This document shows, in pieces, positions 1 to 20,278 of a stretch of 64,000 nt of DNA (within the stretch, counting starts at the first letter, position 1; each line of letters begins with the position of its first letter). Both the position numbers and the translations under genes were made by a program. Where the stretch lies: assembly GCA_027493775.1 (NCBI GenBank), contig JAOSKE010000001.1, positions 1,072,917 through 1,136,916 on the forward strand, written 5' to 3'. The notes under the pieces were generated by a model. That model did no database searches, was not told the origin of the DNA, and saw only the letters and a program-made list of their open reading frames with translations. This stretch comes from Kiritimatiellia bacterium. GTDB lineage: Bacteria > Verrucomicrobiota > Kiritimatiellia > CAIVKH01.

Positions 1-284
1 CGCATGAGTTTTCGATTCCGCCGCGGGGCTCAGCGGTACCCGCCCCGGAGTGCTCAACCGCCAGGAGGTGCAGCGGCTGATCGACGCGCCGCGGAACATC
101 ACATCCACGTGCTGCGCCACTGCTTCGCCACGCACCTGATGGAAGAGGGCACGGACATCTACACGATCAAGCGCTGGATGGGCCACACCGCCCTGGTCAC
201 CACCGGGCCATTACATGCACGTCACCGCGGGAGCACCTGGCCCGGGTGAAGAGTCCGCTGGACCACCCGTACAACGCGGCCTGA
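1..284 (+). pseudogene. Tyrosine recombinase of element A, partial with internal deletion
   Basis: This is the C-terminal part of the 286-residue tyrosine recombinase found intact in copy B. The beginning lies outside the window. A roughly 310-bp stretch carrying the first catalytic Arg and the Lys is missing, and small indels around 40 and 205-235 shift the frame. The HxLRH box (in [10 protein letters not shown]) and the GH box (in WMGHTAL) are still recognisable. The Tyr region (TGRYMHV in the other copies) is disrupted by an indel. It would not encode a working enzyme as read here. Confidence 0.8.
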
Positions 285-1416
285 GTGAACGCGCCGCCCT
301 GCGGGTGGCCGATGTGTTCCGCGCCGGCTGGCCCGAGTACCTGCGCCGCCATCACGTCCCCGCCTTCCAGCTCAAAGCCGTCCGGCATCTGCTCGCCTGC
401 CGCACCCCGGCGCTCGGCGGGCACGTCTGGCGCTGCGCCTCTTGCGGGCGCCGGGCCGTGCTCTACAACTCCTGCCGCGACCGGCACTGTCCGACCTGCC
501 AGGGCGCGGCGCGCGAGAAGTGGCTGGCCCGGCGCATGTGCGAGCTGATCCCCGCCCCGTACTTCCACGTCGTCTTCACCCTGCCACACGAGCTCAACCC
601 GCTGCTGCGCCACAACCGCGAGACGTTGCTCGACCTCTTCTTTCGCGAAGTCAACGCCACCCTCCAGGAGTTTGCCCGCGATCCCCAATGGAAGCTCGAA
701 GGCCAACTCGGATTCCTCGCCGTCCTGCACACCTGGAGCCAGACGCTCGTCGAGCACGTCCACCTCCACTGCGCCGTGCCCGGCGGCGCGTGGCGGAAGA
801 ATGCGCACACCTGGGCGCCGGCCGCCGCAACTGGCTCTTCCGCGCCTCCTCGCTCGCCGACCGGTTCCGCAACCGCTACCTGCGCGCCGTGCGCAGGCGG
901 CTCGACCGGGGCACGCTGGTCCTGCCCGCCGGAACCGAAGACTGGAACGACGTCTGCGCGCGGCTTGCCGCCACCGACTGGATCGTCTACGCCAAGAAGC
1001 CCTTCGCCGGGCTTCCCGGCAGGCCCTCGAGTACCTCGGACGCTACACCCACAAGGTCGCCATCAGCGACTACCGCATCCTCCAGCTCGAAGATGGTCGC
1101 GTCACCTTCCGCTACCGGGATCGCGCCGACGGCGACACCGAAAAAGACGATGACCCTGTCCGCCGACGCCTTCATCGGGCGCTTCCTGCTCCACATCCTC
1201 CCGCCCGGCTTCCAGAAAGATCCGGTTCTACGGCTGGATGGCCCGCAACGTCCGCACTGAGAACCTCCGGCATATCCGGCAGGCCCTGAACGTGCCGCCG
1301 CCCGACGTCCCCCGAAGCCACCGCGTATCGCGCCCGACTGTCCCGCCTGTGGAAAGGCGACCCTGCTCATCGAAGGCCTGATCGGCAGAGCGCGGGGCCC
1401 TCCGCACCGCCCATGA
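285..1416 (+). pseudogene. IS91-family transposase of element A, frameshifted
   Basis: The gene starts at GTG 285, directly after the recombinase TGA, as in copies B and C. N-terminal zinc-binding domain: CASCGRR followed by CRDRHCPTCQG. HUH motif: EHVHLHCAVPGG. Y2 motif: YLGRYTHKVAISDYRI. These are the hallmarks of IS91-type rolling-circle (HUH, two-tyrosine) transposases. The frame is lost at G/C runs near 298, 820 and 1010-1025 and at an A run near 1141. Copy C, with compensating shifts, gives a 376-residue frame, so the intended protein is about 376 residues. The breaks could be sequencing errors. Confidence 0.8.
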
Positions 1417-1760
1417 ACCCGAAACCGACAACGATCCTCCTCCACCGGCGCAGCCCCACCGCCGCAACGCAGCGCTCTGCCCACAACCCGCAAAGGCAGC
1501 CGTCTGGAACACTCGTCCACGCCTCCCGCACACTGGGAACCTCGCGTCGCCGTATCGCAAACCGCCGCGTATCCTTCCGGAAACGCAACGACTCGGGAAA
1601 TGTCGGCTTGCCCGATCCACAAAACTCGTCTATAAATCCCATCGGTAACAGCGACCGCGCGGCTCCGTTCAACACGTTTTATCCGGAATGCCGCGGACCG
1701 CGGTTTTCCGCCAAGCCCACCGTCGGTCTTCGCGGCACTCCGCATAAAACGCTATTTGTT
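1417..1760 (+). other. Non-coding right end of element A
   Basis: About 340 bp follow the transposase stop, with no credible gene. The sequence is conserved in all three copies and ends with the attC-like palindrome at 1667-1764. In IS91 elements the replication-origin end (oriIS) lies downstream of the transposase, so this is the expected place for it. The oriIS assignment is inference. Confidence 0.6.
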
Positions 1761-1773: not shown

Positions 1774-2709
1774 ATGATGATACCTACTAATCAATCCATC
1801 TGCGTGTTACTGGCTATCGTTGGGGCTGCGTGCTCTGCGCGACTCCCTCCTATCGTTCATGATATGCGTTCGGCTACAGGGCGCGAGGCGCAATCCCGCA
1901 TTTTTAATCGCATCGCTACAAACGCGCAGGAAAGAAGCGAGTTGTTTGCATACATGGATGCCCGTCCCGATAGCGTAGCTGCCGCCAAATCGAAATTATT
2001 GATGTTCTATGCGGATCAATCCAACAAGACCGCAGCACTTCCCACACCTCTCGATTTTAGCCCCATCAGTACGCCTCTGCATACTTGCGAAGGGCTCAAC
2101 TATAGATTCTCCTCGCCCTGGCCCGAATTTGTTGTGTCGGCTGGAAGTGAAGGGCAGTGGGTTGCTTTTCAGGATAACCAAGGGCGCATGATGATGATGT
2201 CGATATCCCTGACAACAAACGCCTTTGATGAGTTTGTTGTGCGAGAACTATCATCCGTAATAAATGACTTAAACTGGATTCAGGCCTTTGCCTTCCCGGA
2301 CAATAGAAATATTCATGGAATAGAATTTTATAGACGATGCCTAAGCATCGCTCCTCACGATTTGAGTTCATGCACGAATATGGATGGCGCTTTTCAATAT
2401 CTTGCGCGAATGATGATTAAACTGGTTCTTCTATCTGGCAATTCTTCGCCTATTGTCAACGAGGTGCGAACAGGTGATTATGAAGGTTATCAGGTCCAGG
2501 ACGCCAGCAAACCAGGGCGCTATATCATTCGCCTTTTCGACAACACTGGAAATCTTATTGAGCTGGTTTTCGGATTTAAGAAAGAGCAAAAGACTTCAAT
2601 TTCACAAGCAGATGTGAATTGCGTTCTCTTGTCATTAAAGAAAATCAATGACGCAGAACAAGCGGGTGCAGCGTACCCGCCACAAGGTGTCGGGTCCGCT
2701 GACCCGTGA
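1774..2709 (+). CDS. Putative secreted lipoprotein, unknown function (cassette gene)
   Basis: I do not recognise a family. The chosen start, ATG 1774, gives 311 residues. The N-terminus is hydrophobic (ICVLLAIVGAACSAR) and may be a lipoprotein signal with Cys at about residue 20; the lipobox (GAAC) is weak. The rest is soluble, without repeats or clear motifs. The gene directly follows the right end of element A, with only 13 bp between. Its last 19 or so codons lie inside the attC at 2653-2717, so the tail (AGAAYPPQGVGSADP) is specified by recombination-site DNA. Its base composition is clearly more A+T-rich than the flanking elements. Confidence 0.7.
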   Translation: MMIPTNQSICVLLAIVGAACSARLPPIVHDMRSATGREAQSRIFNRIATNAQERSELFAYMDARPDSVAAAKSKLLMFYADQSNKTAALPTPLDFSPISTPLHTCEGLNYRFSSPWPEFVVSAGSEGQWVAFQDNQGRMMMMSISLTTNAFDEFVVRELSSVINDLNWIQAFAFPDNRNIHGIEFYRRCLSIAPHDLSSCTNMDGAFQYLARMMIKLVLLSGNSSPIVNEVRTGDYEGYQVQDASKPGRYIIRLFDNTGNLIELVFGFKKEQKTSISQADVNCVLLSLKKINDAEQAGAAYPPQGVGSADP

Positions 2710-2717
2710 CGTTGAAC
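2653..2717 (+). repeat. attC recombination site
   Basis: R'' box GCAGAAC (2653-2659) and R' box GTTGAAC (2711-2717). The arms AACAAGCGGGTGCAGCG and CGCTGACCCGTGACGTT are imperfect inverted repeats with unpaired bases, as in integron attC sites. Element B begins at or within the R' box, so GAAC may belong to the element. Confidence 0.75.
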
Positions 2718-2719
2718 GG

Positions 2720-2761
2720 AACCGCTGCGCGGAGAAGGAGATATCTCGCGAGGCGGTTTTT
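2720..2761 (+). terminator. Hairpin with T-run at left end of element B
   Basis: The arms AACCGCTGCGCG (2720-2731) and CGCGAGGCGGTT (2747-2758) are followed by TTT. The inner stretch contains the palindrome GAGATATCTC. Copy C has the same structure at 10901-10942. It is placed to stop read-through from upstream cassettes, or to serve as the element's left-end structure. Confidence 0.5.
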
Positions 2762-2820
2762 GCTTTGATGAACGACTAGACTGGCTCCAGCGGCGCTCGG
2801 CATGAAGTCGAGAGGGCCGC

Positions 2821-3681
2821 GTGAAGGAGTCGGTCATGTCGGCACTGCGGGAATCGGTTTTGCTGGAGATGCGGCTGCGCGGGTTCGCGGCCAAGACGGT
2901 GGAGGCCTACATCCACGCGCTGGAGCAGTTGTGGGCGTTCTATCGTCGAGCGTTGGAGCGGTTGAGTTGCGCGGAGGTGCAGCGGTTCCTCGACGAGGTC
3001 ATCACGGTGCGCAAGCTGGCGTGGGCGACGGTGAACGTGTACTTCAGCGCGTACCGGTTTCTCTACGAGCAGGTGCTTCATCGCGCCCCGCATGAGTTTT
3101 CGATTCCGCCGCGGGGGCGCAGCGGTACCCGCCCCGGAGTGCTCAACCGCCAGGAGGTGCAGCGGCTGATCGACGCGCCGCGGAACATCAAGCACCGCAC
3201 GCTGCTGGCCATGACCTATGGGTCGGGTCTGCGCGTGAGCGAGGCGGTGCGCGTGCGCATCGCCGACATCGACCGCGGGCGCATGATGCTGCGGGTCGAG
3301 CAGGGCAAGGGGCGCCGGGACCGCTACACGATCCTCTCGGCGCGGGCGCTTGCGCTCCTGGAGGAACTGTGGCGCTGGGAGCGGCCCCAGGAGTACTTCT
3401 TCTTCACCCGTCGCGACCGCCACCAGCCGATCTGCGTCGGCACCGCCCAGGCCGTCTACTACGCCGCGCTGCGCACCAGCGGCGTGCGCCGCGTCGGCGG
3501 CATCCACGTGCTGCGCCACTGCTTCGCCACGCACCTGATGGAAGAGGGCACGGACATCTACACGATCAAGCGCTGGATGGGCCACACCGCCCTGGTCACC
3601 ACCGGCCGCTACATGCACGTCACCGCGGAGCACCTGGCCCGGGTGAAGAGTCCGCTGGACCACCCGTACAACGCGGCCTGA
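2821..3681 (+). CDS. Tyrosine recombinase (phage-integrase family) of element B
   Basis: 286 residues from GTG 2821 (ATG 2836 is an alternative five codons in). The N-terminal SAM-like DNA-binding domain spans about residues 10-95 and the catalytic domain about 110-286. All catalytic residues are visible: Arg138 (GSGLRVSEA), Lys163 (GKGRRDR), His229/Arg232 (HVLRH), His255 (WMGHTAL) and Tyr264 (TGRYMHV). It lacks the extra helical insert that marks integron integrases between the Lys and His boxes, so it is not IntI. Its stop is followed at once by the transposase GTG, so the two are probably co-translated. Its role in the element is unknown. Site-specific integration or resolution at the attC-like ends is an inference. 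Confidence 0.85.
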   Translation: MKESVMSALRESVLLEMRLRGFAAKTVEAYIHALEQLWAFYRRALERLSCAEVQRFLDEVITVRKLAWATVNVYFSAYRFLYEQVLHRAPHEFSIPPRGRSGTRPGVLNRQEVQRLIDAPRNIKHRTLLAMTYGSGLRVSEAVRVRIADIDRGRMMLRVEQGKGRRDRYTILSARALALLEELWRWERPQEYFFFTRRDRHQPICVGTAQAVYYAALRTSGVRRVGGIHVLRHCFATHLMEEGTDIYTIKRWMGHTALVTTGRYMHVTAEHLARVKSPLDHPYNAA

Positions 3682-4814
3682 GTGAACGCGCCGCCCCTGC
3701 GGGTGGCCGATGTGTTCCGCGCCGGCTGGGCCCGAGTACCTGCGCCGCCATCACGTCCCCGCCTTCCAGCTCAAAGCCGTCCGGCATCTGCTCGCCTGCC
3801 GCACCCCGGCGCTCGGCGGGCACGTCTGGCGCTGCGCCTCTTGCGGCCGCCGGGCCGTGCTCTACAACTCCTGCCGCGACCGGCACTGTCCGACCTGCCA
3901 GGGCGCGGCGCGCGAGAAGTGGCTGGCCCGGCGCATGCGCGAGCTGATCCCCGCCCCGTACTTCCACGTCGTCTTCACCCTGCCACACGAGCTCAACCCG
4001 CTGCTGCGCCACAACCGCGAGACGTTGCTCGACCTCTTCTTTCGCGAAGTCAACGCCACCCTCCAGGAGTTTGCCCGCGATCCCCAATGGAAGCTCGAAG
4101 GCCAACTCGGATTCCTCGCCGTCCTGCACACCTGGAGCCAGACGCTCGTCGAGCACGTCCACCTCCACTGCGCCGTGCCCGGCGGCGCGTGGCGGAAGAA
4201 TGCGCACACCTGGGCGCCGGGCCGCCGCAACTGGCTCTTCCGCGCCTCCTCGCTCGCCGACCGGTTCCGCAACCGCTACCTGCGCGCCGTGCGCAGGCGG
4301 CTCGACCGGGCCACGCTGGTCCTGCCCGCCGGAACCGAAGACTGGAACGACGTCTGCGCGCGGCTTGCCGCCACCGACTGGATCGTCTACGCCAAGAAGC
4401 CCTTCGCCGGGCCCCCGGCAGGTCCTCGAGTACCTCGGACGCTACACCCACAAGGTCGCCATCAGCGACTACCGCATCCTCCAGCTCGAAGATGGTCGCG
4501 TCACCTTCCGCTACCGGGATCGCGCCGACGGCGACACCGAAAAGACGATGACCCTGTCCGCCGACGCCTTCATCGGGCGCTTCCTGCTCCACATCCTCCC
4601 GCCCGGCTTCCAGAAGATCCGGTTCTACGGCTGGATGGCCCGCAACGTCCGCACTGAGAACCTCCGGCATATCCGGCAGGCCCTGAACGTGCCGCCGCCC
4701 GACGTCCCCCCGAAGCCACCGCGTATCGCGCCCGACTGTCCCGCCTGTGGAAAGGCGACCCTGCTCATCGAAGGCCTGATCGGCAGAGCGCGGGGTCCTC
4801 CGCACCGCCCATGA
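3682..4814 (+). pseudogene. IS91-family transposase of element B, two frameshifts
   Basis: GTG 3682 follows the recombinase stop without a gap. The zinc-binding N-terminus (CASCGRR, CRDRHCPTCQG), the HUH motif (HVHLHC) and the two-tyrosine motif YLGRY are all present, but in different frames. An extra G near 3729 and an extra C in the run near 4412 break the frame. Repaired, it would give about 376 residues ending in a short zinc-finger-like PDCPACGKATL stretch. Both breaks are at homopolymers that differ between copies, so sequencing error is as likely as decay. Confidence 0.8.
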
Positions 4815-5160
4815 ACCCGAAACCGACAACGATCCCTCCTCCACCGGCGCAGCCCCACCGCCGCAACGCAGCGCTCTGCCCACAACCCGCAAAGGCAGCC
4901 GTCTGGAACACTCGTCCACGCCTCCCGCACACTGGGAACCTCGCGTCGCCGTATCGCAAACCGCCGCGTATCCTTCCGGACAACGCAACGACTCGGGAAA
5001 TGTCGGCTTGCCCGGTCCACAAAACTCGTCTATAAATCCCATCGCTAACAGCGACCGCGCGGCTCCGTTCAACACGTTTTATCCGGAATGCCGCGGCCCG
5101 CGGTTTTCCGCCAAGCCCACCGTCGGTCTTCGCGGCACTCCGCATAAAACGCTATTTGTT
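4815..5160 (+). other. Non-coding right end of element B
   Basis: 346 bp without a supported gene, conserved with copies A and C. It contains the palindromic terminus described at 5067-5164. This is the probable oriIS end of an IS91-type element, by position only. Confidence 0.6.
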
Positions 5161-5164
5161 GGGC
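5067..5164 (+). repeat. attC-like palindrome at right end of element B
   Basis: R''-like GTTCAAC (5067-5073) and R' GTTGGGC (5158-5164, fits GTTRRRY). The arms ACGTTTTATCCGGAATGCCG and CGGCACTCCGCATAAAACGC pair. The R' box is completed by host or cassette DNA at 5161-5164. Confidence 0.6.
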
Positions 5165-5175
5165 GATAAAGAGAA

Positions 5176-5703
5176 ATGAAAATACTTGTCGGCATACTCA
5201 TAAGCATCGGGCTCAACGCAACCCTGACGCTGATCGGGCATGGACGATTCGCGTTCGACATAATGATTCTCGCTGCTTGTATATGGATCGCGGCGCCGCT
5301 ATTCATCTTCTCGGGTATCTTCCTCGCAATCGCCTACCGCAAGCCCCATCCCGTTATGATTGGTATTGGGCAATGGATTATGCTGGCATCACTCGTCCTT
5401 GGCTCCACATTAGCATCTATCACAATGGGGGGGCTTCTCAATCAAAGAGAGATCGGGAAGGCTAAGAAATACTGCGAACAACTAGCGGTGCGATTGGACC
5501 AGATGAAAGAACAAAGTGGATTGTACCCCACCAACCTTGTCGGAATGATCGAGCAAACAGACATTCCGAGAATCCTGAAGGACGGAAACCTGTACTACCA
5601 TTCCCAAGGCACCAACTATTCGATCACGTTCTCCGATCCCGGCGGAATGATGAACGGATGGGATTTCATCGGAAACACAAGAAAATGGAGCCGATTCGAT
5701 TGA
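5176..5703 (+). CDS. Membrane protein with pseudopilin-like C-terminal stretch, unknown function
   Basis: 175 residues, first gene of the cassette after element B, start ATG 5176. Three hydrophobic segments lie at about residues 3-22, 28-55 and 60-85. A soluble tail follows; its pattern (LDQMKEQSGLYPTNL, then LYYHSQGTNYSITFSDPGG) resembles the C-terminal part of type II secretion pseudopilins, where 'YPxxL' is followed by a beta-sheet. This resemblance is by eye and weak. The stop is 11 bp before the attC. Confidence 0.7.
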   Translation: MKILVGILISIGLNATLTLIGHGRFAFDIMILAACIWIAAPLFIFSGIFLAIAYRKPHPVMIGIGQWIMLASLVLGSTLASITMGGLLNQREIGKAKKYCEQLAVRLDQMKEQSGLYPTNLVGMIEQTDIPRILKDGNLYYHSQGTNYSITFSDPGGMMNGWDFIGNTRKWSRFD

Positions 5704-5714
5704 ACAAGAGGAAC

Positions 5715-5785
5715 GCCCAACCAGCGGGTGGAGCGTATTTTTCGCCCGGGGCGGGCAAAAAATCCGCTCACCGCTGACGTTGGGG
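5715..5785 (+). repeat. attC recombination site
   Basis: R'' GCCCAAC (5715-5721) and R' GTTGGGG (5779-5785). The arms AACCAGCGGGTGGAGCG and CGCTCACCGCTGACGTT are complementary with the usual extrahelical bases. Confidence 0.85.
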
Positions 5786-5786
5786 A

Positions 5787-6282
5787 ATGATGAAGAAAGG
5801 GAAAACAGCAATAATGCTGCTCGCCGCCATCATTGGCATGAGCGCTTGCCGCCCATTTGAGGAGAAATCACTTGGCCAACATGATGGTATTCCAGACAGC
5901 GGCGTATTGACAGAGATGATTCACGTAAGTTACCGCGCTGCTACTGACAAATGGTTTGGCGGCGACAACGCAAAGGCGTTTCGACTCACCATTCAGAACA
6001 CTTCCACTACTCGAATAAGCGGAATCACACTACGCGTAGACGAAGCGTTCACAAATTCCCTCGACAAAATGCTCTTCTATTTCCGGATTCGTGAAGGGGA
6101 ATAGCCCCCTTGAACGCGAGTATCTTGAAGCAAACGAGTCCATTGGCTTCAGCTTCTCCCACGATGCAAGCAATCACGGGATATTTCGAAACGACAAAGG
6201 GGAATCGCTACCTCCTGAAACACTGCCGCAGGCACTTGAAATCAACTCAACAATTGGATCCGGGAAATGGACATTCAAATGA
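5787..6282 (+). CDS. Putative lipoprotein, unknown function (frameshift in sequence)
   Basis: ATG 5787 overlaps the attC R' end by one base spacing, so the cassette has almost no leader. The N-terminus is a lipoprotein-type signal (IMLLAAIIGMSAC, Cys about 21). The frame ends early at 6104. Removing one G from the run at 6097-6100 joins it to a second frame (GNSPLEREYLEANESIGFSFSH) ending at 6282, giving about 164 residues. The region resembling 'AFRLTIQNTSTTRISGITLRV' suggests a beta-sandwich domain. No family is recognised. The stop is 2 bp before the next attC. Confidence 0.7.
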
Positions 6283-6284
6283 AA

Positions 6285-6355
6285 CCCCAACAAGGCGGTG
6301 GAGGGTACGGCTCACCCGCGGCGGGTTCGCCGCCTCCTCACCGCTGACGTTCGGT
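6285..6355 (+). repeat. attC recombination site
   Basis: R'' CCCCAAC (6285-6291) and R' GTTCGGT (6349-6355). Arms AACAAGGCGGTGGAGGG and CCTCACCGCTGACGTT. The central part GGCTCACCCGCGGCGGGTT is shared with the next site. Confidence 0.85.
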
Positions 6356-6366
6356 GAAATGAAGAT

Positions 6367-6747
6367 ATGAGACATCTGCTGGCAATACTGCTCCTCGCAC
6401 TCTCCGCCTACAGTATTGCTGTACGCCATGAGAACTTTCTGAATTCTCGTTCGGCTATTGCCAGAGCGCACTCAGCGAAAGCGCGAGAATTGAAAGCAGA
6501 ACTTGAGCGAAAGCAGAGCGACGAATACCACCAGAAAATGGCCGAAGAATGCGCGGCATTTATCACATGGCAAAGAGAGGAATGGTTCCGCAAGACAGAC
6601 GAATACGCATGGCTATCTAATGGAATCATCGCAATCACCCTGCTGTACCTCCCGAGCACATATTTGAAGAGGCGGAAAAGGAACACCGAACCAGGCGGTG
6701 GAGGGTACGGCTCACCCGCGGCGGGTTCGCCGTCCCCTCACCGCTGA
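6367..6747 (+). CDS. Small two-helix membrane protein, unknown function
   Basis: 126 residues from ATG 6367. A membrane segment lies at about residues 2-19, then a charged coiled-coil-like stretch (ARAHSAKARELKAELERKQ), then a second membrane segment near residues 83-98. The frame runs on through most of the attC at 6685-6755, so the last 20 or so residues (rich in Gly, Pro, Ser) are encoded by the recombination site. The function is unknown. Confidence 0.65.
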   Translation: MRHLLAILLLALSAYSIAVRHENFLNSRSAIARAHSAKARELKAELERKQSDEYHQKMAEECAAFITWQREEWFRKTDEYAWLSNGIIAITLLYLPSTYLKRRKRNTEPGGGGYGSPAAGSPSPHR

Positions 6748-6755
6748 CGTTGAGC
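6685..6755 (+). repeat. attC recombination site
   Basis: R'' ACCGAAC (6685-6691) and R' GTTGAGC (6749-6755, perfect GTTRRRY). Arms AACCAGGCGGTGGAGGG and CCCTCACCGCTGACGTT. Confidence 0.85.
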
Positions 6756-6802
6756 AAAATGAAGAAGATGTATATGCTCGCGTCACGGAAAGGAGATTGG
6801 CC

Positions 6803-9800
6803 ATGAACGCTCGCACTGTTGGTTGCTGTATACTTACCGCCGCACTGCTTACGACGACTCCGTACATCGCCACCGCGTATGAAGATTATTCCGGGTACGT
6901 GTCCGCAGTCGCGTCTAATGAGAACGCTTACCGGCAAGCCAACTATCTGATCGACAATCTGACGGACCTGGAAACCTTCTTCAAGGTCGACCATCAGGAC
7001 TTCTGGATGACCGGTGCTGTCATTCCGGGAACCGACCTCTGGACAGTCGTTGCCTCACCGGCGGATATTCCGATGGACTGGAACGCCCTTCCATCGGGAT
7101 TCACAAGCGCGCTGGTTTCCACCACCGATTACGGTGTGATCGTCTATCCCCTCCTGGTCCAAGAGAATCCCACCAATCATCAAGTGCAGTACATCGCGGG
7201 CGGCACGGTGATTCACACCATGCCGACGGTGTACACGAACACAAGCCGCTACGCGACAAACGCGCATCCGAATCTTTACGGCGGAGGATACACCCCGGAG
7301 CAAATCGCCGAGATCGAGGCCATGTACGCGCCTTCGCGTCTGGTCGTGGCCGTGGACATGGTCCGGCACACCAATCTTTACGCTCTTCTCTACAATCAAA
7401 TATTTGCCTCCGGCGAACCCAACTCCTACGGGCACGAAGTGCTGGAAGACACCGACGGCGACGGGGTCAGCAACCGGGATGAAATCCGATGGGGAACCGA
7501 CCCAAATGACCCCGGCAGTTTTCCGGGTTTCGCGAAAACCTTTCTGACCAACGCCAATGTGGCCGTTTCCTGGCCCGCGCCGAGCAATCGAAACTATCAG
7601 GTCGAACGGCGGGACGATCTGCTTTCAGGAGATTGGAGCGCGGCGTCGAGTTGGATCGGAGGCAATGACGCGCTTCTGACGCATGAAAACAGCAGCGGCG
7701 CGTCCAATCGCTTCTTCCGGTACCGGATTCAAGAGTTGGACATCAACGGGAACAACCTGCCCGACTGGTGGGAGGTCAAATACTGGGGCGGGCTGACGAC
7801 CAACACGCCATCCGGCGACAACGACGGGGACGGCTTGGACAATGGGGAGGAACTCTACTTCGGCTACTCGCCGTTGGTCTCCCAACGCGAACTGATCCAC
7901 AGCATCTACCACCCCGTTGTCGTGAGCGATAATTCGCCGACGAAAGATGATGGGACGGAGCGCTTCGATTTTCACGGTGGCGGCAGGCCGCTTTCGCTGG
8001 CGCAAGGCTCTGCGCAAGAAGCTTGGGGCGGCAGCCAGGCAACCCTGTACGGACGCCTCAACACCAACGCGGCCAATCTGGCCTTTCACAGCGGAGGCGC
8101 GTTTTTCAACAACGACGAGGAAATGCTGTATGTTGGGATATACGGCATGGAACGAGAATCCGACAACGCCTGGGTGTTTTTCATCGACTCCAACGCGGGA
8201 GGCGTGACCAATCTGCGCCACCTGAGCGGGCAGCCAAGGGCTCTCGGGAACGCGAAGAACATCCATTTCGACGCCACGCAGTTCACGCCGAATGTTGCGA
8301 TTATACTTGGTGCCAATGACGCCGACGGGAAAAACTACCCCGGCTACACGATTGCAGGGAACGAAGTCGGCCAGGGCGTTTATGATTTGGCGACGGGGGC
8401 CAGTTTCCCGGGATTCAACACGACTACGGGCGGTTGCTACATCTCGCAGTGGAGCCAAGGCGCAACCGAGGACTCACCCAACGGCGGTGTGGAGGTTGCG
8501 CTTTCGCTCAACGCATTGGGATGTCAACCTGGCCACACGGTCAAAGTCGCCGCGATACTGGTCGGCGGCATGAGCACATCGAACCGCTGGGTCTCTCCGC
8601 TGGTGTACGGCAAGAGCGTCAATCCGTCGGGCGGAGGATTCCAGAACCAGATCATCATTGGCGCCCCGGTTCAACTCGGCAGCGCGGCCATGTCCCTGCC
8701 GAATCCAGGGTATCCTGGTTTCAATGAAAACGACGTTCTCCTACAAGGGTTCTATTGGGACACCACTCCTGAAGAACATTGGTGGAACACTTACTCCAAC
8801 TACAATCTTCATGGAATAATCGCTAGTGCTGGATTCACTATGGTTTGGCTCCCCCCTGCGTACAAGGGGTCGAATGCCGGACGATCGGTCGGTTATGACC
8901 CGTACGATCATTATGACCTGGGTGAGTATTACCAGGCGGGTGGAACCTTCCCCAAGAGCACTAGAACCCGCTATGGACTTCGTTCCGAACTCGAATGGTT
9001 GATTGGCGCGCTGAAATCCAACGGGGTCGTTGTCCTAGAAGACATCGTTCTGAATCACATGGTCGGCGGCGCAAACAGTGGCTACACCTACACGAACCAC
9101 CCGACGCATACCAATGCGCCACAATTCCACAAAACCGCCCTTGATTTCCATCCCTCCACAAACGGCCACAATGACACGATGTTCCCCTACCACAACGACT
9201 ATGGATTCAGTTGGCCCGATGAGCAATCATACAGCGTTGACATCGCGCATCTTGTCCCAAACATGCGGCTCGGCCTCAAGCAGTGGGGCAACTGGCTCGC
9301 TGAGACAATCAAGTTTCAAGGCTGGCGGCTCGACCTGACTCAAGGGGTCGAGCCTTGGTACATCTGGGAGTGGCTCCACTACCGCAACATCCGTCCCGGC
9401 TTTGCTTTCTTGGAGTACTGGGAACCGGCCAACGGACGAGAGATGCAGGAATGGCTCGATCTCACCGGTCGCAAAGCCGCCATCTACGATTCCCACCTTC
9501 GCGAGTTGCTCAAACAGATGTGCGAATCGGGCAACACCTTCGATATGCGCAAGCTGATTGCCCCAAGCCTGCTCGGGCTTGAGCCAGACCACACAGTTGT
9601 TTATCTCGACAATCACGACACCTTCCGCACGGGCGAGACCAACAGCCTTGGGCAAGCCACCAAGCCCGGCATCATGGCGAACAAGCCTATGGGCTATGCC
9701 TACGCGTTCCACTCCAAAGGTCTTCCCATGGTGTTCTGGCGTGAGTATTTCGACTACGCATATCTGACAACCAATGCGCAGCCTGTGTGGGGGAGCAAGA

Positions 9801-10138
9801 TTCCGGGCGAAATCAATCGACTCATCAAGATTCGGAAAAAGGCTGTCGGAGGCCCCCTCGCCGTTCTTCACGCCGACGCAGACGTCTACGCACAGGAGCG
9901 CGCGGGTGGCGGCGGCAGACACAAAAGCCTGCTTGTTATCAACGACTCCTCCTCCATCCGTACGAATGCCATTCAAACGACTTGGTACAATACCGTGTTG
10001 GTTGATTTGGTGTCCACGAGCGGCTCGCCCCACACGGTGACGAGCGGCCCATCGGGTTCGGTCACGATCGCGATACCCGCCAAAACGTATCGCATCTATT
10101 CGACCACGAATGCGCTCAACGAGGTCAATAATCCATGA
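6803..10138 (+). CDS. Secreted GH13 alpha-amylase-type glycoside hydrolase with calcium-binding repeats
   Basis: 1,111 residues; start ATG 6803 with AAGGAG upstream. The signal peptide is at about residues 1-25. Two thrombospondin-type-3-like calcium loops (DTDGDGVSN near 216, DNDGDGLDN near 340) flank a roughly 100-residue beta-type region. The catalytic GH13 barrel runs from about residue 640. Its conserved regions are complete: DIVLNH (747-752), GWRLD with nucleophile Asp844, FLEYWE with acid/base Glu871, and DNHD with Asp939. It should hydrolyse alpha-1,4-glucans outside the cell. Gene and partner fill one attC-bounded unit of about 4.1 kb, very large for a cassette. It overlaps the next gene by ATGA. 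Confidence 0.9.
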   Translation: MNARTVGCCILTAALLTTTPYIATAYEDYSGYVSAVASNENAYRQANYLIDNLTDLETFFKVDHQDFWMTGAVIPGTDLWTVVASPADIPMDWNALPSGFTSALVSTTDYGVIVYPLLVQENPTNHQVQYIAGGTVIHTMPTVYTNTSRYATNAHPNLYGGGYTPEQIAEIEAMYAPSRLVVAVDMVRHTNLYALLYNQIFASGEPNSYGHEVLEDTDGDGVSNRDEIRWGTDPNDPGSFPGFAKTFLTNANVAVSWPAPSNRNYQVERRDDLLSGDWSAASSWIGGNDALLTHENSSGASNRFFRYRIQELDINGNNLPDWWEVKYWGGLTTNTPSGDNDGDGLDNGEELYFGYSPLVSQRELIHSIYHPVVVSDNSPTKDDGTERFDFHGGGRPLSLAQGSAQEAWGGSQATLYGRLNTNAANLAFHSGGAFFNNDEEMLYVGIYGMERESDNAWVFFIDSNAGGVTNLRHLSGQPRALGNAKNIHFDATQFTPNVAIILGANDADGKNYPGYTIAGNEVGQGVYDLATGASFPGFNTTTGGCYISQWSQGATEDSPNGGVEVALSLNALGCQPGHTVKVAAILVGGMSTSNRWVSPLVYGKSVNPSGGGFQNQIIIGAPVQLGSAAMSLPNPGYPGFNENDVLLQGFYWDTTPEEHWWNTYSNYNLHGIIASAGFTMVWLPPAYKGSNAGRSVGYDPYDHYDLGEYYQAGGTFPKSTRTRYGLRSELEWLIGALKSNGVVVLEDIVLNHMVGGANSGYTYTNHPTHTNAPQFHKTALDFHPSTNGHNDTMFPYHNDYGFSWPDEQSYSVDIAHLVPNMRLGLKQWGNWLAETIKFQGWRLDLTQGVEPWYIWEWLHYRNIRPGFAFLEYWEPANGREMQEWLDLTGRKAAIYDSHLRELLKQMCESGNTFDMRKLIAPSLLGLEPDHTVVYLDNHDTFRTGETNSLGQATKPGIMANKPMGYAYAFHSKGLPMVFWREYFDYAYLTTNAQPVWGSKIPGEINRLIKIRKKAVGGPLAVLHADADVYAQERAGGGGRHKSLLVINDSSSIRTNAIQTTWYNTVLVDLVSTSGSPHTVTSGPSGSVTIAIPAKTYRIYSTTNALNEVNNP

Positions 10139-10857
10139 AGACAATACCGCTTGCCATACTTGTTGCAGTCGCCACCATATCGGCGGCATCCGCCGATCTT
10201 GTTTACGACATTGATTACGAACCGCCAGCCTACACAAACGGGCAACAGATCGGCGGCGGGAACACAAGAACCATTAGCGACAGCATTCCCGGATTCACGA
10301 GTCAAGCCCTGCTTCTTCATGATGGCGGAGGTATCAGCTACTATGCGCCACAGCCGTATACAACTGGACTGCATTCCATTTCGTGGGATTTCGGAGTTCC
10401 TGTGGACCAGTCATCTACAGAGATTATTGGGATGCTGCTTGGATCAGCGCATGTAGATGTTACGATGAGCGGCAGCCCCTCCTCCTATCTAATAGAATAT
10501 GGCCCGTTCCCGCTTGGCGCACCTCGTCAGTCTGTTCCGTTCCAGATTGGTCAAGTATATTCTTTCCATATACTTCTGGACCTCGATAGTGCTCGGTACG
10601 CTCTTTATCTAAACGGCAATCAACTTCTCGACGACGCGCCTCTTCAGTTTGGCTCCAGCAGTCTTGACTACGTCAGCTTTGGTCAAAGCCAAACTCTCGG
10701 ACTACAAGCGGGTCTTGACAATTTCCGCTGGGAAGTAATCCCAGAGCCGATCTCAATTCTTCTAATTCTGCTGGGCGGCTCGTTCCTCATCTCTTCGAGC
10801 CGCAGAAAGCACGAACAGAAATTAGACGCTCAACAATCGCCTGCACCATTACGCTGA
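10135..10857 (+). CDS. PEP-CTERM sorting-domain protein
   Basis: 240 residues; its ATG overlaps the stop of the amylase gene (ATGA), so the two are co-translated. Signal peptide at about residues 1-20. The middle is beta-rich and looks like a lectin/glucanase-type jelly roll (LHSISWDFGVPVDQ, LDNFRWEV). The C-terminus is IPEP followed by a hydrophobic helix and SSSRRK, the layout of PEP-CTERM signals processed by exosortase. It is probably retained at the cell surface or in extracellular matrix. It may be a carbohydrate-binding partner of the amylase; that is inference from the neighbour. Confidence 0.8.
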   Translation: MKTIPLAILVAVATISAASADLVYDIDYEPPAYTNGQQIGGGNTRTISDSIPGFTSQALLLHDGGGISYYAPQPYTTGLHSISWDFGVPVDQSSTEIIGMLLGSAHVDVTMSGSPSSYLIEYGPFPLGAPRQSVPFQIGQVYSFHILLDLDSARYALYLNGNQLLDDAPLQFGSSSLDYVSFGQSQTLGLQAGLDNFRWEVIPEPISILLILLGGSFLISSSRRKHEQKLDAQQSPAPLR

Positions 10858-10898
10858 ACCCGTGGCGGGTTCAGCGAAGGTGAGGCGCGACGTTGAAC
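10828..10898 (+). repeat. attC recombination site
   Basis: R'' GCTCAAC (10828-10834) and R' GTTGAAC (10892-10898). Arms AACAATCGCCTGCACC and GGTGAGGCGCGACGTT. Element C begins at or inside the R' box, exactly as element B does at 2711. Confidence 0.8.
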
Positions 10899-11001
10899 GG
10901 AACCGCTTCGCGGAGAAGGAGATATCTCGCGAGGCGGTTTTTGCTTTGATGAACGACTAGACTGGCTCCAGCGGCGCTCGGCATGAAGTCGAGAGGGCCG
11001 C

Positions 11002-11862
11002 GTGAAGGAGTCGGTCATGTCGGCACTGCGGGAATCGGTTTTGCTGGAGATGCGGCTGCGCGGGTTCGCGGCCAAGACGGTGGAGGCCTACATCCACGCG
11101 CTGGAGCAGTTGTGGGCGTTCTATCGTCGAGCGTTGGAGCGGTTGAGTTGCGCGGAGGTGCAGCGGTTCCTCGACGAGGTCATCACGGTGCGCAAGCTGG
11201 CGTGGGCGACGGTGAACGTGTACTTCAGCGCGTACCGGTTTCTCTACGAGCAGGTGCTTCATCGCGCCCCGCATGAGTTTTCGATTCCGCCGCGGGGGCG
11301 CAGCGGTACCCGCCCCGGAGTGCTCAACCGCCAGGAGGTGCAGCGGCTGATCGACGCGCCGCGGAACATCAAGCACCGCGCGCTGCTGGCCATGACCTAT
11401 GGGTCGGGTCTGCGCGTGAGCGAGGCGGTGCGCGTGCGCATCGCCGACATCGACCGCGGGCGCATGATGCTGCGGGTCGAGCAGGGCAAGGGGCGCCGGG
11501 ACCGCTACACGATCCTCTCGGCGCGGGCGCTTGCGCTCCTGGAGGAACTGTGGCGCTGGGAGCGGCCCCAGGAGTACTTCTTCTTCAACCGTCGCGACCG
11601 CCACCAGCCGATCTGCGTCGGCACCGCCCAGGCCGTCTACTACGCCGCGCTGCGCACCAGCGGCGTGCGCCGCGTCGGCGGCATCCACGTGCTGCGCCAC
11701 TGCTTCGCCACGCACCTGATGGAAGAGGGCACGGACATCTACACGATCAAGCGCTGGATGGGCCACACCGCCCTGCTCACCACCGGCCGCTACATGCACG
11801 TCACCGCGGAGCACCTGGCCCGGGTGAAGAGTCCGCTGGACCACCCGTACAACGCGGCCTGA
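11002..11862 (+). CDS. Tyrosine recombinase of element C
   Basis: 286 residues from GTG 11002 (ATG 11017 alternative), differing from the copy B protein at a handful of residues. All six catalytic positions (Arg138, Lys163, His229, Arg232, His255, Tyr264) are kept, so it should be active. It is immediately followed by the transposase GTG. It lacks the IntI-specific insert. For its role see copy B. Confidence 0.85.
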   Translation: MKESVMSALRESVLLEMRLRGFAAKTVEAYIHALEQLWAFYRRALERLSCAEVQRFLDEVITVRKLAWATVNVYFSAYRFLYEQVLHRAPHEFSIPPRGRSGTRPGVLNRQEVQRLIDAPRNIKHRALLAMTYGSGLRVSEAVRVRIADIDRGRMMLRVEQGKGRRDRYTILSARALALLEELWRWERPQEYFFFNRRDRHQPICVGTAQAVYYAALRTSGVRRVGGIHVLRHCFATHLMEEGTDIYTIKRWMGHTALLTTGRYMHVTAEHLARVKSPLDHPYNAA

Positions 11863-12993
11863 GTGAACGCGCCGCCCCTGCGGGTGGCCGATGTGTTCCG
11901 CGCCGGCTGGCCCGAGTACCTGCGCCGCCATCACGTCCCCGCCTTCCAGCTCAAAGCCGTCCGGCATCTGCTCGCCTGCCGCACCCCGGCGCTCGGCGGG
12001 CACGTCTGGCGCTGCGCCTCTTGCGGCCGCCGGGCCGTGCTCTACAACTCCTGCCGCGACCGGCACTGTCCGACCTGCCAGGGCGCGGCGCGCGAGAAGT
12101 GGCTGGCCCGGCGCATGCGCGAGCTGATCCCCGCCCCGTACTTCCACGTCGTCTTCACCCCTGCCACACGAGCCAACCCGCTGCTGCGCCACAACCGCGA
12201 GACGTTGCTCGACCTCTTCTTTCGCGAAGTCAACGCCACCCTCCAGGAGTTTGCCCGCGATCCCCAATGGAAGCTCGAAGGCCAACTCGGATTCCTCGCC
12301 GTCCTGCACACCTGGAGCCAGACGCTCGTCGAGCACGTCCACCTCCACTGCGCCGTGCCCGGTGGCGCGTGGCGGAAGAATGCGCACACCTGGGCGCCGG
12401 CCGCCGCAACTGGCTCTTCCGCGCCTCCTCGCTCGCCGACCGGTTCCGCAACCGCTACCTGCGCGCCGTGCGCAGGCGGCTCGACCGGGCCACGCTGGTC
12501 CTGCCCGCCGGAACCGAAGACTGGAACGACGTCTGCGCGCGGCTTGCCGCCACCGACTGGATCGTCTACGCCAAGAAGCCCTTCGCCGGGCCCCGGCAGG
12601 GCCCTCGAGTACCTCGGACGCTACACCCACAAGGTCGCCATCAGCGACTACCGCATCCTCCAGCTCGAAGATGGTCGCGTCACCTTCCGCTACCGGGATC
12701 GCGCCGACGGCGACACCGAAAAGACGATGACCCTGTCCGCCGACGCCTTCATCGGGCGCTTCCTGCTCCACATCCTCCCGCCCGGCTTCCAGAAGATCCG
12801 GTTCTACGGCTGGATGGCCCGCAACGTCCGCACTGAGAACCTCCGGCATATCCGGCAGGCCCTGAACGTGCCGCCGCCCGACGTCCCCCCGAAGCCACCG
12901 CGTATCGCGCCCGACTGTCCCGCCTGCGGAAAGGCGACCCTGCTCATCGAAGGCCTGATCGGCAGAGCGCGGGGCCCTCCGCACCGCCCATGA
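11863..12993 (+). CDS. IS91-family HUH/Y2 transposase of element C (internal out-of-frame stretch)
   Basis: One open frame of 376 residues. Residues roughly 100-106 (FTPATRAN instead of FTLPHELN) and 178-245 are read in the wrong frame because of paired indels at C/G runs. Outside these stretches: zinc-binding cysteines at the N-terminus, EHVHLHCAVPGG (HUH) near residue 160 and YLGRYTHKVAISDYRI (paired catalytic tyrosines, spaced as in IS91) near residue 250. The C-terminus has a second Cys pair (PDCPACGKATL). Its role would be single-strand, rolling-circle-type transposition. Whether this exact copy is active depends on whether the indels are real. Confidence 0.8.
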   Translation: MNAPPLRVADVFRAGWPEYLRRHHVPAFQLKAVRHLLACRTPALGGHVWRCASCGRRAVLYNSCRDRHCPTCQGAAREKWLARRMRELIPAPYFHVVFTPATRANPLLRHNRETLLDLFFREVNATLQEFARDPQWKLEGQLGFLAVLHTWSQTLVEHVHLHCAVPGGAWRKNAHTWAPAAATGSSAPPRSPTGSATATCAPCAGGSTGPRWSCPPEPKTGTTSARGLPPPTGSSTPRSPSPGPGRALEYLGRYTHKVAISDYRILQLEDGRVTFRYRDRADGDTEKTMTLSADAFIGRFLLHILPPGFQKIRFYGWMARNVRTENLRHIRQALNVPPPDVPPKPPRIAPDCPACGKATLLIEGLIGRARGPPHRP

Positions 12994-13339
12994 ACCCGAA
13001 ACCGACAACGATCCCTCCTCCACCGGCGCAGCCCCACCGCCGCAACGCAGCGCTCTGCCCACAACCCGCAAAGGCAGCCGTCTGGAACACTCGTCCACGC
13101 CTCCCGCACACTGGGAACCTCGCGTCGCCGTATCGCAAACCGCCGCGTATCCTTCCGGAAACGCAACGACTCGGGAAATGTCGGCTTGCCCGGTCCCACA
13201 AAACCCGTCTATAAATCCCATCGGTAACAGCGACCGCGCGGCTCCGTTCAACACGTTTTATCCGGAATGCCGCGGACCGCGGTTTTCCGCCAAGCCCACC
13301 GTCGGTCTTCGCGGCACTCCGCATAAAACGCTATTTGTT
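12994..13339 (+). other. Non-coding right end of element C
   Basis: 346 bp, near-identical to 4815-5160, with no supported gene. It ends in the palindrome at 13246-13343. Confidence 0.6.
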
Positions 13340-13343
13340 AGGT
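13246..13343 (+). repeat. attC-like palindrome at right end of element C
   Basis: R''-like GTTCAAC (13246-13252) and R' GTTAGGT (13337-13343, fits GTTRRRY). Arms as in copies A and B. Confidence 0.6.
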
Positions 13344-13863: not shown

Positions 13864-14304
13864 GTGCGTCTTTGGTCACTGCATCCCAAATACTTGGACG
13901 CAAAGGGTCTTGTTGCGCTTTGGCGTGAGGCTCTACTGGCCAAGGCCGTACTGCGCGGCGAAACGCGCGGTTACATTCATCATCCACAGCTGGAGCGGTT
14001 CCGCGAGCATCCGCAGCCACACTCAGCAATCAACGCTTACCTTGCCGCAATCCAAGATGAGGCAACGGCTCGGGGTTACAACTTCAACCGCGCCAAGGTT
14101 GGCCCGGTTCGGGCGGTTCGGAATATCTCGGTCACAGCGGGGCAGCTTGCAGATGAGTGGCACCACTTACAAAGCAAGCTGGCTGTTCGCAGCCCGGCGG
14201 TTCATGCGCAATGGAGCGAGGTAGCCACACCGAGTTGCCATCCGTTGTTCCATTGCAAGCCCGGTGGCGTCGCATCGTGGGAGCGCGCGTCAAGTGGCAC
14301 CTAA
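13864..14304 (+). CDS. Pyrimidine-dimer DNA glycosylase/endonuclease V family protein
   Basis: 146 residues from GTG 13864. The opening MRLWSLHPKYLDAKGLVALWREALLA and the following HHPQLERF are typical of the pyrimidine-dimer glycosylase (Pyr_excise) family, which removes UV-induced cyclobutane dimers. The second half (AVHAQWSEV onward) is less conserved and may be altered by an indel. It sits 5 bp behind tspO in the same cassette, and its TAA stop lies inside the attC R'' box. A light-stress pair is a plausible reading, by inference. Confidence 0.75.
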   Translation: MRLWSLHPKYLDAKGLVALWREALLAKAVLRGETRGYIHHPQLERFREHPQPHSAINAYLAAIQDEATARGYNFNRAKVGPVRAVRNISVTAGQLADEWHHLQSKLAVRSPAVHAQWSEVATPSCHPLFHCKPGGVASWERASSGT

Positions 14305-14370
14305 CAAGTCATTCAAGCCGACCGCCAAACCGCTACGCGGTTCGTCGGCGGCTTAATTCCGGCGTTGGGA
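14299..14370 (+). repeat. attC recombination site
   Basis: R'' ACCTAAC (14299-14305) and R' GTTGGGA (14364-14370). Inner arms ATTCAAGCCGACC and GGCGGCTTAATTCC; core hairpin AACCGC/GCGGTT. Confidence 0.8.
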
Positions 14371-14384
14371 GAAAGGAAAGAACT

Positions 14385-14915
14385 ATGAAGAACAAATCGT
14401 GGATTGGAATCGGCGTAGCGGCGCTTGTCATCGTGGGGATGTTTCGTATGTGTTCCGGCGGAGGAACCGAACGCGCCATTGAACGGGTGCTCGCGCTAGA
14501 CCACCAGTATTCGCAGGCGATGAGTGCGGACACGGCACAGACGGAGGACCCCAACCAGCAACTCGACGCCGTGGCCGCGCAGGTCTTTCAGTATACCACC
14601 CAAGCAAAAAGCATAGACCTCTCATCGGTTCCCAAGGATTTCGCCGCCGCCTACTACGGACATGTGTCCGCATGGGAGGATATGGGAACAACCATCCAGA
14701 GGCATCCATACATTCCCTCTACAATGGAAGGCGTTGTTGAGGGATTCATAAGAGGACTTCTCGGGGACTGGACAGGCGGGGCATTCGAGAAACAACAAAT
14801 GTTCGACGACTACGGTCGCCAGCTTCAGGCGAGGGATGACGAGATCAAGAGAACATGGCGAGAGGTGGAGACAATCGCAATCCGCAATGGTGCAAGCATC
14901 AAGACAGGAGAATAG
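14385..14915 (+). CDS. Membrane-anchored protein, unknown function
   Basis: 176 residues from ATG 14385, preceded by GAAAGGAAAG. One N-terminal membrane segment (residues 5-22), then a mostly helical soluble domain with a Gly-rich centre (VVEGFIRGLLGDWTGG). No family is recognised. It is co-cassetted with the 88-residue protein starting 5 bp after its stop. Confidence 0.7.
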   Translation: MKNKSWIGIGVAALVIVGMFRMCSGGGTERAIERVLALDHQYSQAMSADTAQTEDPNQQLDAVAAQVFQYTTQAKSIDLSSVPKDFAAAYYGHVSAWEDMGTTIQRHPYIPSTMEGVVEGFIRGLLGDWTGGAFEKQQMFDDYGRQLQARDDEIKRTWREVETIAIRNGASIKTGE

Positions 14916-14920
14916 GAACC

Positions 14921-15187
14921 ATGTATTCAATGCTGACTATTGATTTGAACAAGGATGTATCAGCAACGGTAAGGGACGCATTCTATGCTGAACTCCAGAA
15001 AAAGCAGTGGAAACGCATCCCCGAACTAACGACTCTCTGGTTTGCAACGTGGAAGGGCGGCACCACAGCAGATGCCGCAATCACGACCACGAAGCAAGAT
15101 GTCGAAGCGGCGGCACAGGCTTCAGGCGTCGCCCACTACGACGCATCCGTCGCAGTCAGCGGAAAGCCGGTAGTCTGGAAAAAATAG
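14921..15187 (+). CDS. Small soluble protein, unknown function
   Basis: 88 residues from ATG 14921, 5 bp after the preceding stop with AGGA just upstream. No signal peptide or membrane segment. The alternation of helix (DAFYAELQKKQW) and strands (TLWFATW, HYDASVAVSG) suggests a small alpha/beta fold. Second gene of its cassette; the stop is 3 bp before the attC. Confidence 0.65.
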   Translation: MYSMLTIDLNKDVSATVRDAFYAELQKKQWKRIPELTTLWFATWKGGTTADAAITTTKQDVEAAAQASGVAHYDASVAVSGKPVVWKK

Positions 15188-15190
15188 GAC

Positions 15191-15251
15191 TCCCAACCAT
15201 CGGCTGCTGCGTACGTCGCTACCGCGCCGCCGCAGAGCCGTGACGCTGTGC
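15191..15251 (+). repeat. attC site with altered R' box
   Basis: R'' TCCCAAC (15191-15197). Arms AACCATCGGCTGC and GCAGAGCCGTGACGCT. The R' box reads GCTGTGC (15245-15251) instead of GTTGTGC, so the conserved TT at the crossover point is lost. Confidence 0.7.
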
Positions 15252-15270
15252 TGAATGAAAGGAAGACAAT

Positions 15271-15987
15271 ATGTCACAAGCCCCGTGGGTAAAAATCGCT
15301 AACGCCGTTCGCGAATCCGTCGTACTTATCGAAACACCGGGCGGACGGGGCACGGGGTTCGTAGTTCCACCACCTCCGGGGTCTCCGCACCAAGCAATCA
15401 TCACGGCGTATCACGTGATTGACCACGCCCTTGATTGGCGTGAACCCATTAAGATCACGCACTTTCCGTCAGGAAAACAGGCCTTTCTAGACGTCAATGC
15501 CCGCGAGATTAACCCCAATGCCGCACGTGATATGGCACTCATCCAATTCGCGGCAAAAGACCTTCCGCTGCCTCCAAGCAAGGTTCAGATGCTCAAGGCA
15601 AAGACTCGGTTGAACGAAGGTGTCCAGACAGGATGGCTTGGCTACCCCGCTGTCGCACCGTTCAATCTCTGCTTCTTCACAGGACACATTAGCGCATGGC
15701 TGGAACCCGACGAGGCATATCTCGTCGATGGCGTGGCGATCAATGGCGTAAGTGGCGGCCCGGCCTTTTACGAAGACGAACACGGGAACATATGGATCAT
15801 CGGAATAGTGACTGAATACCGACCGAACCTAGCAACCGGAAATATTCTTCCTGGAGTCAGCCTGATCAGATCTACGAGTCCTGTAATGGAGTTCTACGTG
15901 ACCTTGCAGAAGCAGATCGAGGCCGCGACCGTGCAAGCCATTCCGAAGGCACAAAGCCAAGGCGGTTTACCAACAGGTCTGAAATAG
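15271..15987 (+). CDS. Trypsin-like serine protease without signal peptide
   Basis: 238 residues from ATG 15271, preceded by GAAAGGAAG. The catalytic triad is visible: His in ITAYHVID (about residue 50), Asp in ARDMALIQF (about 88) and Ser in NGVSGGPAF (about 161). There is no signal peptide or membrane helix, so the enzyme should be cytoplasmic. That is unusual for housekeeping DegP-type proteases but common in defence and regulatory proteases. No PDZ domain. Single gene of its cassette. The substrate is unknown. Confidence 0.85.
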   Translation: MSQAPWVKIANAVRESVVLIETPGGRGTGFVVPPPPGSPHQAIITAYHVIDHALDWREPIKITHFPSGKQAFLDVNAREINPNAARDMALIQFAAKDLPLPPSKVQMLKAKTRLNEGVQTGWLGYPAVAPFNLCFFTGHISAWLEPDEAYLVDGVAINGVSGGPAFYEDEHGNIWIIGIVTEYRPNLATGNILPGVSLIRSTSPVMEFYVTLQKQIEAATVQAIPKAQSQGGLPTGLK

Positions 15988-15990
15988 GAT

Positions 15991-16061
15991 GCACAACCAG
16001 AGGGTTCACCGTACGGCTCACCCGTGGCGGGCTCGCCGTCCGGTGACCCTCGACGTTCGGC
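15991..16061 (+). repeat. attC recombination site
   Basis: R'' GCACAAC (15991-15997) and R' GTTCGGC (16055-16061). Arms AACCAGAGGGTTCACCG and CGGTGACCCTCGACGTT, with the central GGCTCACCCGTGGCGGG found at other sites. Confidence 0.85.
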
Positions 16062-16122
16062 TGCAGGAAGAAGGAGCCATTCGGCAACCGTTGTCAAATA
16101 CGGCTCCACGAAAGGAAGAAGT

Positions 16123-16646: not shown

Positions 16647-16653
16647 GCTAACC

Positions 16654-16917: not shown

Positions 16918-16922
16918 AAGAA

Positions 16923-16993
16923 GCCGAACAAGCGGCGGCACACGTACGCGAGGCCCGCTGCGGGTCTCGCGCCGGTGCGCCCTGACGTTCGAC
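16923..16993 (+). repeat. attC recombination site
   Basis: R'' GCCGAAC (16923-16929) and R' GTTCGAC (16987-16993). Arms AACAAGCGGCGGCAC and GTGCGCCCTGACGTT. Confidence 0.8.
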
Positions 16994-17005
16994 GGAGAAG
17001 ACAGA

Positions 17006-20276: not shown

Positions 20277-20278
20277 CC

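Follow-up and report, generated by a model that had tools for sequence, protein, structure and literature searches.

We analyzed a repeated IS91-type unit in a 64-kb window (the whole stretch of DNA under analysis, 64,000 nucleotides, whose positions serve as coordinates below) of the 3.2-Mb genome of a Kiritimatiellia bacterium, hereafter the source genome or G000. The unit encodes a tyrosine recombinase (TyrR) and a Y2 transposase and lies in an integron cassette array. Taken as a whole, and with the mechanism proposed below included, it is reasonably probable that the unit is a TyrR-bearing IS91-family transposon with an attC-like right terminus that can fold as a single strand, and that it doubles as a gene cassette. 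The original prediction, made from the letters of the window, had described an IS91-type unit framed as a cassette at attC sites, and this observation is real and goes beyond chance: ten copies were found in G000, on contigs C1, C3, C4 and C5, where nine of the ten right ends were at GTT and seven of the eight readable left ends lay directly behind an attC. While the placement stood, the prediction had missed that the unit brings an attC-like right end of its own.

Cassette framing of the unit in the source genome

The unit copies, their genes and the neighboring attC sites in the window were as follows.

1..1760, + strand: copy A of the unit, cut at a scaffold gap and with an internal deletion; its right end is preserved and leads into a cassette beginning GTTCTGC
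1667..1760, + strand: attC-like right end of copy A (R'' box GTTCAAC, hairpin, GTT)
2653..2713, + strand: attC of the cassette upstream of copy B
2711..5160, + strand: copy B, complete unit and cassette, 2,450 bp (GTTGAACGG ... CTATTTGTT)
2711..2750, + strand: left end, GTTGAACGGAACCGC..., kept in relatives down to 48% TyrR identity
2821..3681, + strand: TyrR gene of copy B, intact, 286 aa, catalytic R-K-H-R-H-Y complete
3682..4814, + strand: IS91-type Y2 transposase gene of copy B, frame broken by single-base indels
5067..5160, + strand: attC-like right end of copy B; folding energy -32 kcal/mol (z -6.0) for the bottom strand and -25.7 for the top
5715..5781, + strand: ordinary attC (control) of the cassette downstream of copy B
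10828..10894, + strand: attC of the cassette upstream of copy C
10892..13339, + strand: copy C, complete unit and cassette, 2,448 bp, starting GTTGAACGG and ending CTATTTGTT
11002..11862, + strand: TyrR gene of copy C, intact
11863..12993, + strand: IS91-type Y2 transposase gene of copy C, out of frame in stretches bounded by compensating indels
13246..13339, + strand: attC-like right end of copy C
14299..14366, + strand: ordinary attC (control) of the cassette downstream of copy C

As predicted, copies B and C, which are ~99% identical, start right after an attC, and all three copies end in ...CTATTTGTT, with right junctions GTTCTGC (A), GTTGGGC (B) and GTTAGGT (C). The last 94 bp of the unit form the attC-like site. 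Its R'' box, GTTCAAC, matches the reverse complement of GTTGAAC, the bases with which the unit itself starts, at seven of seven positions in copies B and C, and the complementarity between the R'' side and the left end reaches ten bp (GTTGAACGGA/TCCGTTCAAC). As shown by this pairing of the right end with the left, circularisation would rebuild an attC-like site. The ordinary cassettes of the array follow the identical rule of R'' against own start. When this rule was applied mechanically from cassette to cassette, with only 26 hairpin candidates in the 64 kb, the array was read in steps at 1758, 2711, 5158, 5779, 6349, 6749, 10892, 13337 and 14364, each with a 7/7 match and with units B and C included; the next step of the scan (14364 to 21410) probably omits attC sites near 16000, 16930 and 17450. 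Because the R'' box is complementary to the unit's own first bases and the chain runs through the array, each copy amounts to a complete cassette bearing an attC-like end of its own, beyond simply lying between attC sites.

Other cassettes flank the unit and meet it at G/TT, and its boundaries in G000 were confirmed by copies of the neighboring cassettes that lack it: in the window, another cassette comes after the one at 5779-6351, but on contig C4 the unit comes after it, and the cassette starting at 5158 is preceded by the unit in the window but by another attC on C4. That the element splits an attC in G000 was considered and rejected, since complete sites are retained by both neighboring cassettes. 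Every well-resolved copy in G000 sits in an attC context, and the nine readable right junctions run into eight different sequences, each beginning at GTT. The eighth readable left end, on contig C5, has a low-complexity flank of doubtful assembly and the right end there is truncated; the scaffold gap upstream of copy A consists of 673 N. A bona fide integron integrase gene (402 bits) was found elsewhere on the contig of the window, and an Rfam scan of the window gave no match. An unusually large cassette of 4.1 kb, at 6749-10894, encodes a secreted amylase-like protein and one of PEP-CTERM type.

The gene pair and the terminal hairpin

The original prediction of an HUH/Y2 transposase together with a non-IntI tyrosine recombinase agreed with the domain searches. 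The Y2 transposase carries PF04986 and PF14319 and scored 324 bits against NF033538 (cut-off 125), which places it in the IS91 family. TyrR carries PF00589 (Phage_integrase), is XerC/IntI-like and has all six catalytic residues of the tyrosine recombinase superfamily in the window; its top NCBIfam model was the integron integrase TIGR02249, at 155.6 bits under the curated cut-off of 265 for IntI. The consensus of the copies leaves both frames open, with 291 codons for TyrR and 376 for the Y2 transposase. The spacing between the catalytic K and H is 64–71 residues in the TyrR family compared with 106–107 in three IntI, and the IntI-specific insert of ~40 residues between them is not present in TyrR. 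This extra IntI region includes a helix that contacts attC. The closest solved structure to TyrR is that of IntI4 (2a3v). In a relative (L050), Q replaces the second catalytic H. In the TyrR tree, where the identical L053 and L054 were counted as one lineage, the elements with a GTT core require two changes and form no clean clade (L153 on a long branch, and L058); deep branches were weak.

The ends of the unit are retained over a wide range of relatives. A relative in a gammaproteobacterial metagenome-assembled genome (MAG; 66% TyrR identity) and one in G310 (48%, with both genes intact) both have GTTGAACGGAACCGC on the left and ...GATAAAACG(C/T)TATT(T/C)GTT on the right, and like ends also occur in other phyla and at TyrR identities of about 40%. 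Plasmid elements of E. coli, Polaromonas, Legionella, Thiothrix, Thiodictyon, Vibrio and Pseudoalteromonas share the layout, with GTTGAAC(T/G)AA(A/G/T)CCGC on the left and G(C/T)(C/T)CAAC-hairpin-GTT on the right, and elements of rhizobial plasmids have a like layout but an ATT core (GGATTGAAC ... GTTCAATCC-hairpin-GATT), with no integron context seen for them. TyrR genes of this type occur in hundreds of plasmid records. Of 388 genomes of the phylum, 14 contain the pattern GTTGAACKRAACCGCT and none its reversed control, although a few of these hits probably arose by chance within coding sequence. A gene-less copy of 140 bp on contig C95 of G289 (L343/L370), resembling a miniature inverted-repeat transposable element, consists of the left end and the attC-like right end only, suggesting that the ends suffice in cis. 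In the same genome, contig C141 contains small toxin-antitoxin-like gene units (L372), candidate cassettes that end in ...GGATAAAA(C/T)(G/A)CTATTCGTT or similar, resembling the right end of the element, and array-like repeats with a common ...ATAAAACGCTATTCGTT end.

We then compared the folds of 13 GTT-core and five ATT-core element ends, whose junctions were rejoined as in the circle, with those of 17 ordinary attCs. The bottom strand was more stable than the top in 11 of the 13 GTT-core ends, all five ATT-core ends and 16 of the 17 ordinary attCs, and the G-T pairs of the element ends were mostly on the bottom strand. On the other hand, a single extrahelical base on the R'' side was found in 15 of the 17 ordinary attCs but in only 2 of the 13 element ends (Fisher P 1.1e-4). 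IntI reads the extrahelical bases of attC (PMC3053210), and an end without them alongside a TyrR without the IntI insert would suggest the cognate pair of the element and not a captured attC. Judged from these sequence features, TyrR and the hairpin end point to a co-adapted pair that would be integron-like yet distinct from the integron machinery. An outward sigma70-like promoter facing the next cassette (e.g. CTTGTC-N17-TATACT) was seen in the right-end hairpin loop in G289 (L359-L369) and L048, but not in the G000 copies.

Insertion contexts and target specificity

The elements were found in arrays or at attC in G000 and in the MAGs G145, G169 and L048. Two E. coli IncC plasmids (L051, L153) also bear TyrR-IS91 units in class 1 integrons. 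In E. coli pM216_AC2, the unit lies in a class 1 integron between aac(6')-IIa and aadA4, and in E. coli RCS41_p it lies in the opposite orientation within the R'' box of the aadA1 attC. The L051 unit had no further close match in 5,426 E. coli genomes, and neither the L051 nor the L153 unit had one among the PLSDB plasmids except for a 254-bp L153-type remnant in Shewanella ANA-3.

A comparison with empty sites, which had been suggested as a check, gave precise junctions. The flanks of the RCS41_p unit joined by one GTT equal uninterrupted E. coli sequences of the aadA1 attC (303/303 nt), and in G289 the left flank on contig C142, GTT and the right flank on C141 are contiguous on C82 (128/129 nt). 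The empty site thus has a single GTT while the insert has GTT at both ends with no other duplication, as expected for IS91 elements, which lack target duplications and whose structured ends are also matched by the hairpin at the right end.

Other copies are found elsewhere. The Pseudoalteromonas element is at attI, one G289 copy is at attI or next to intI, and the Thiodictyon element has intI close by, while the elements of Legionella, Polaromonas and Pseudoalteromonas HL-AS1 and most copies in the related genomes G289, G321, G163 and G175 lie outside integrons. A majority of copies outside attC had been named in the original prediction as grounds for refutation, and this holds in part, depending on the host: copies occupy attC in G000, G145, G169, L048, L051 and L153, but mostly do not in G289, G321, G163 and G175, where they, like several plasmid copies, are at attI-like ATAA-N4/5-GTT or other GTT sites. 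ATAA was found 4–5 nt before GTT in 16 of 29 non-attC left flanks (near-duplicates included), compared with 1.8% of control positions. A similar layout is found in attI1, where an L box is followed after a 5-nt spacer by GTT, and in attI2 with its AATAAAATGTT core (PMC12901181). Given that most copies in these four genomes and several on plasmids lie outside attC, we take the elements to be specific for the GTT core that tyrosine-recombinase-like sites have, rather than for attC alone. The suggestion of a self-mobile cassette or an attC-targeting transposon is accordingly supported in part, by the complete cassette and by the clean attC insertion in an E. coli class 1 integron, but not as a restriction to attC.

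The target of IS91 is GAAC/CAAG. No such target was seen at the element flanks, which meet at GTT. Xer/dif palindromes were also considered as targets because the Legionella and Polaromonas sites look palindromic, and were dropped when only the left ATAA-N4/5-GTT half, resembling an attI L/R box, proved general in the larger set. At the non-integron plasmid copies L052, L054, L057 and L070, the nearby tyrosine recombinase genes are Xer-like and not IntI, and insertion near recombinase sites may be general. A 30-bp palindrome, GACCCTTATGGAAAGCTTTCCATAAGGGTC, was found on the left flank of the L057 copy, at about 3840-3870 in the L057 numbering.

Proposed mechanism and comparison with known systems

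For IS91 and ISCR elements, it has been proposed that the Y2 enzyme begins at an oriIS lying downstream of its gene and runs to terIS upstream of it, yielding circles of single-stranded DNA. If the unit is a transposon of this family with an attC-like terminus, its Y2 (HUH) transposase, working in the rolling-circle manner of IS91, would peel a bottom-strand single-stranded circle off the right end. The strand so displaced would have the better-folding junction of the two, and the circle junction is predicted to be ...CTATTTGTTGAACGG, which folds. Insertion at a GTT site would follow, a tyrosine recombinase acting on the folded circle much as IntI acts on cassettes; the element's own TyrR would be preferred and would act at attI-like sites, and either TyrR or the host IntI may act at attC. 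The outcome would be multiplication by copy-out and paste-in, which is absent from ordinary cassettes.

Several observations weigh against this explanation. Individual Y2 transposase copies in G000 bear indels, and the well-resolved copies of G000 are all in attC while almost none in G289 and G321 are. The enrichment of ATAA has a nominal P of 7e-21 that is too small, since near-duplicate flanks were counted (the G163 pair, G321 C35/C539 and the Legionella pair). In addition, IntI scored above the cut-off in 7 of the 10 genomes tested (G000, G289, G321, G163, G175, G169 and G310) and is known to use attG and secondary 5'-GNT-3'/GTTRRRY sites, so that the element's own TyrR is a candidate catalyst only. 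The last point also speaks for the main rival, a passive cassette moved by the host IntI alone through its attC-like end (attC x attI, attC x attC or attG) with TyrR and the Y2 transposase as cargo. The unit does follow the cassette rule, and its targets resemble attC R' boxes or the attI-like sites. We nevertheless regard this as unlikely, although it deserves serious weight: the extrahelical bases used by IntI are missing from the ends, a like architecture with an ATT core is found in rhizobial plasmids outside any integron, copies are found on records without IntI (two of Legionella, Polaromonas and Thiothrix, all being plasmids and not chromosomes), and the ends and both genes stay linked from the phylum of the window to E. 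coli.

Classical rolling-circle transposition by the Y2 enzyme alone, with the hairpin as oriIS, GTT as the HUH target and an incidental integron link, would account for the structured right end and the lack of target duplication reported for IS91 elements, and an oriIS at that hairpin would displace the bottom strand. This is improbable, as the ATAA-N4/5-GTT targets have the L-box, spacer and R-box layout typical of tyrosine recombinases, the complementarity between left and right R boxes is a feature of recombinase sites, the copies prefer attC, attI and places near recombinase genes, and a conserved intact TyrR would be superfluous. Least plausible by far is the duplication of one cassette segment, by homologous recombination or in the assembly, with no mobility of the unit itself. 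While an element-X cassette-element segment is common to contigs C1 and C3, and the gap and low-complexity junk lie near copies A and C5b, the diversity of the right junctions and the empty sites in other hosts speak against it.

Beyond the transposon that doubles as a cassette, we tentatively raise a wider possibility, to which we give rather less than even credence: the TyrR-IS91 elements may be an integron-like recombination module of their own, pairing a TyrR without the IntI insert and a hairpin without extrahelical bases, with rolling-circle copy-out and paste-in at GTT or ATT. They would then be self-replicating cassettes and a living sister, or possibly a source, of the integron-cassette system. 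If these readings are true, a widespread IS91 subgroup, with members already sitting in class 1 integrons on two IncC plasmids of E. coli, can enter integrons as cassettes and multiply without IntI excision, and a role is suggested for the integrase gene of such IS91 elements. They would also offer a concrete test of the origin of attC and of single-strand recombination, since their recombinase and its site are missing just those two features in which IntI and attC are specialised to match each other.

IS91 elements with an integrase gene are known. Those with the gene upstream (ISAzo26 and ISShvi3) share gene order and families with the unit, and ISAzo26, the annotation of L057, has ends related to those of the unit. 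The statement in the original prediction that no described IS91-type unit behaves in this way has to be narrowed in the light of two earlier mentions. ISShvi3, called IS91-like and compared here by its description only, adjoins attC, giving 'a new gene cassette structure' (PMC9229058), and for ISCR28 of the sul4 module, attC sites at or right after the IS91/ISCR element were mentioned with data not shown and read as possible passive shuffling (PMC12772301). For ISCR28, the TyrR pairing and end architecture were not described. In a literature search whose coverage excluded most subscription journals, we did not come across a description of any of the following for this group: an attC-like terminus shared by the family, a GTT/ATT core, ATAA-N-GTT targets, precise empty sites or missing extrahelical bases.

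Among other mobile elements, IS1111-attC elements and group IIC-attC introns also insert at attC, but their enzymes (DEDD transposase with seekRNA, and reverse transcriptase with ribozyme, respectively) are unrelated to those of the unit, and they target attC, whereas the unit carries an attC-like end and behaves as a cassette. In the CTX phage, a folded single-stranded DNA hairpin is integrated at dif by the tyrosine recombinase XerCD, as would be the case in the mechanism proposed for the unit, but the phage has no recombinase of its own and uses dif, not attC or attI. The closest likeness is to integron cassettes, with which the unit shares the R'' and R' boxes, the unpaired spacer, the variable loop, the bottom-strand bias and the cassette framing; unlike them, it encodes its own TyrR and HUH transposase, has a site without extrahelical bases and is also found outside arrays at sites with a shared target motif.

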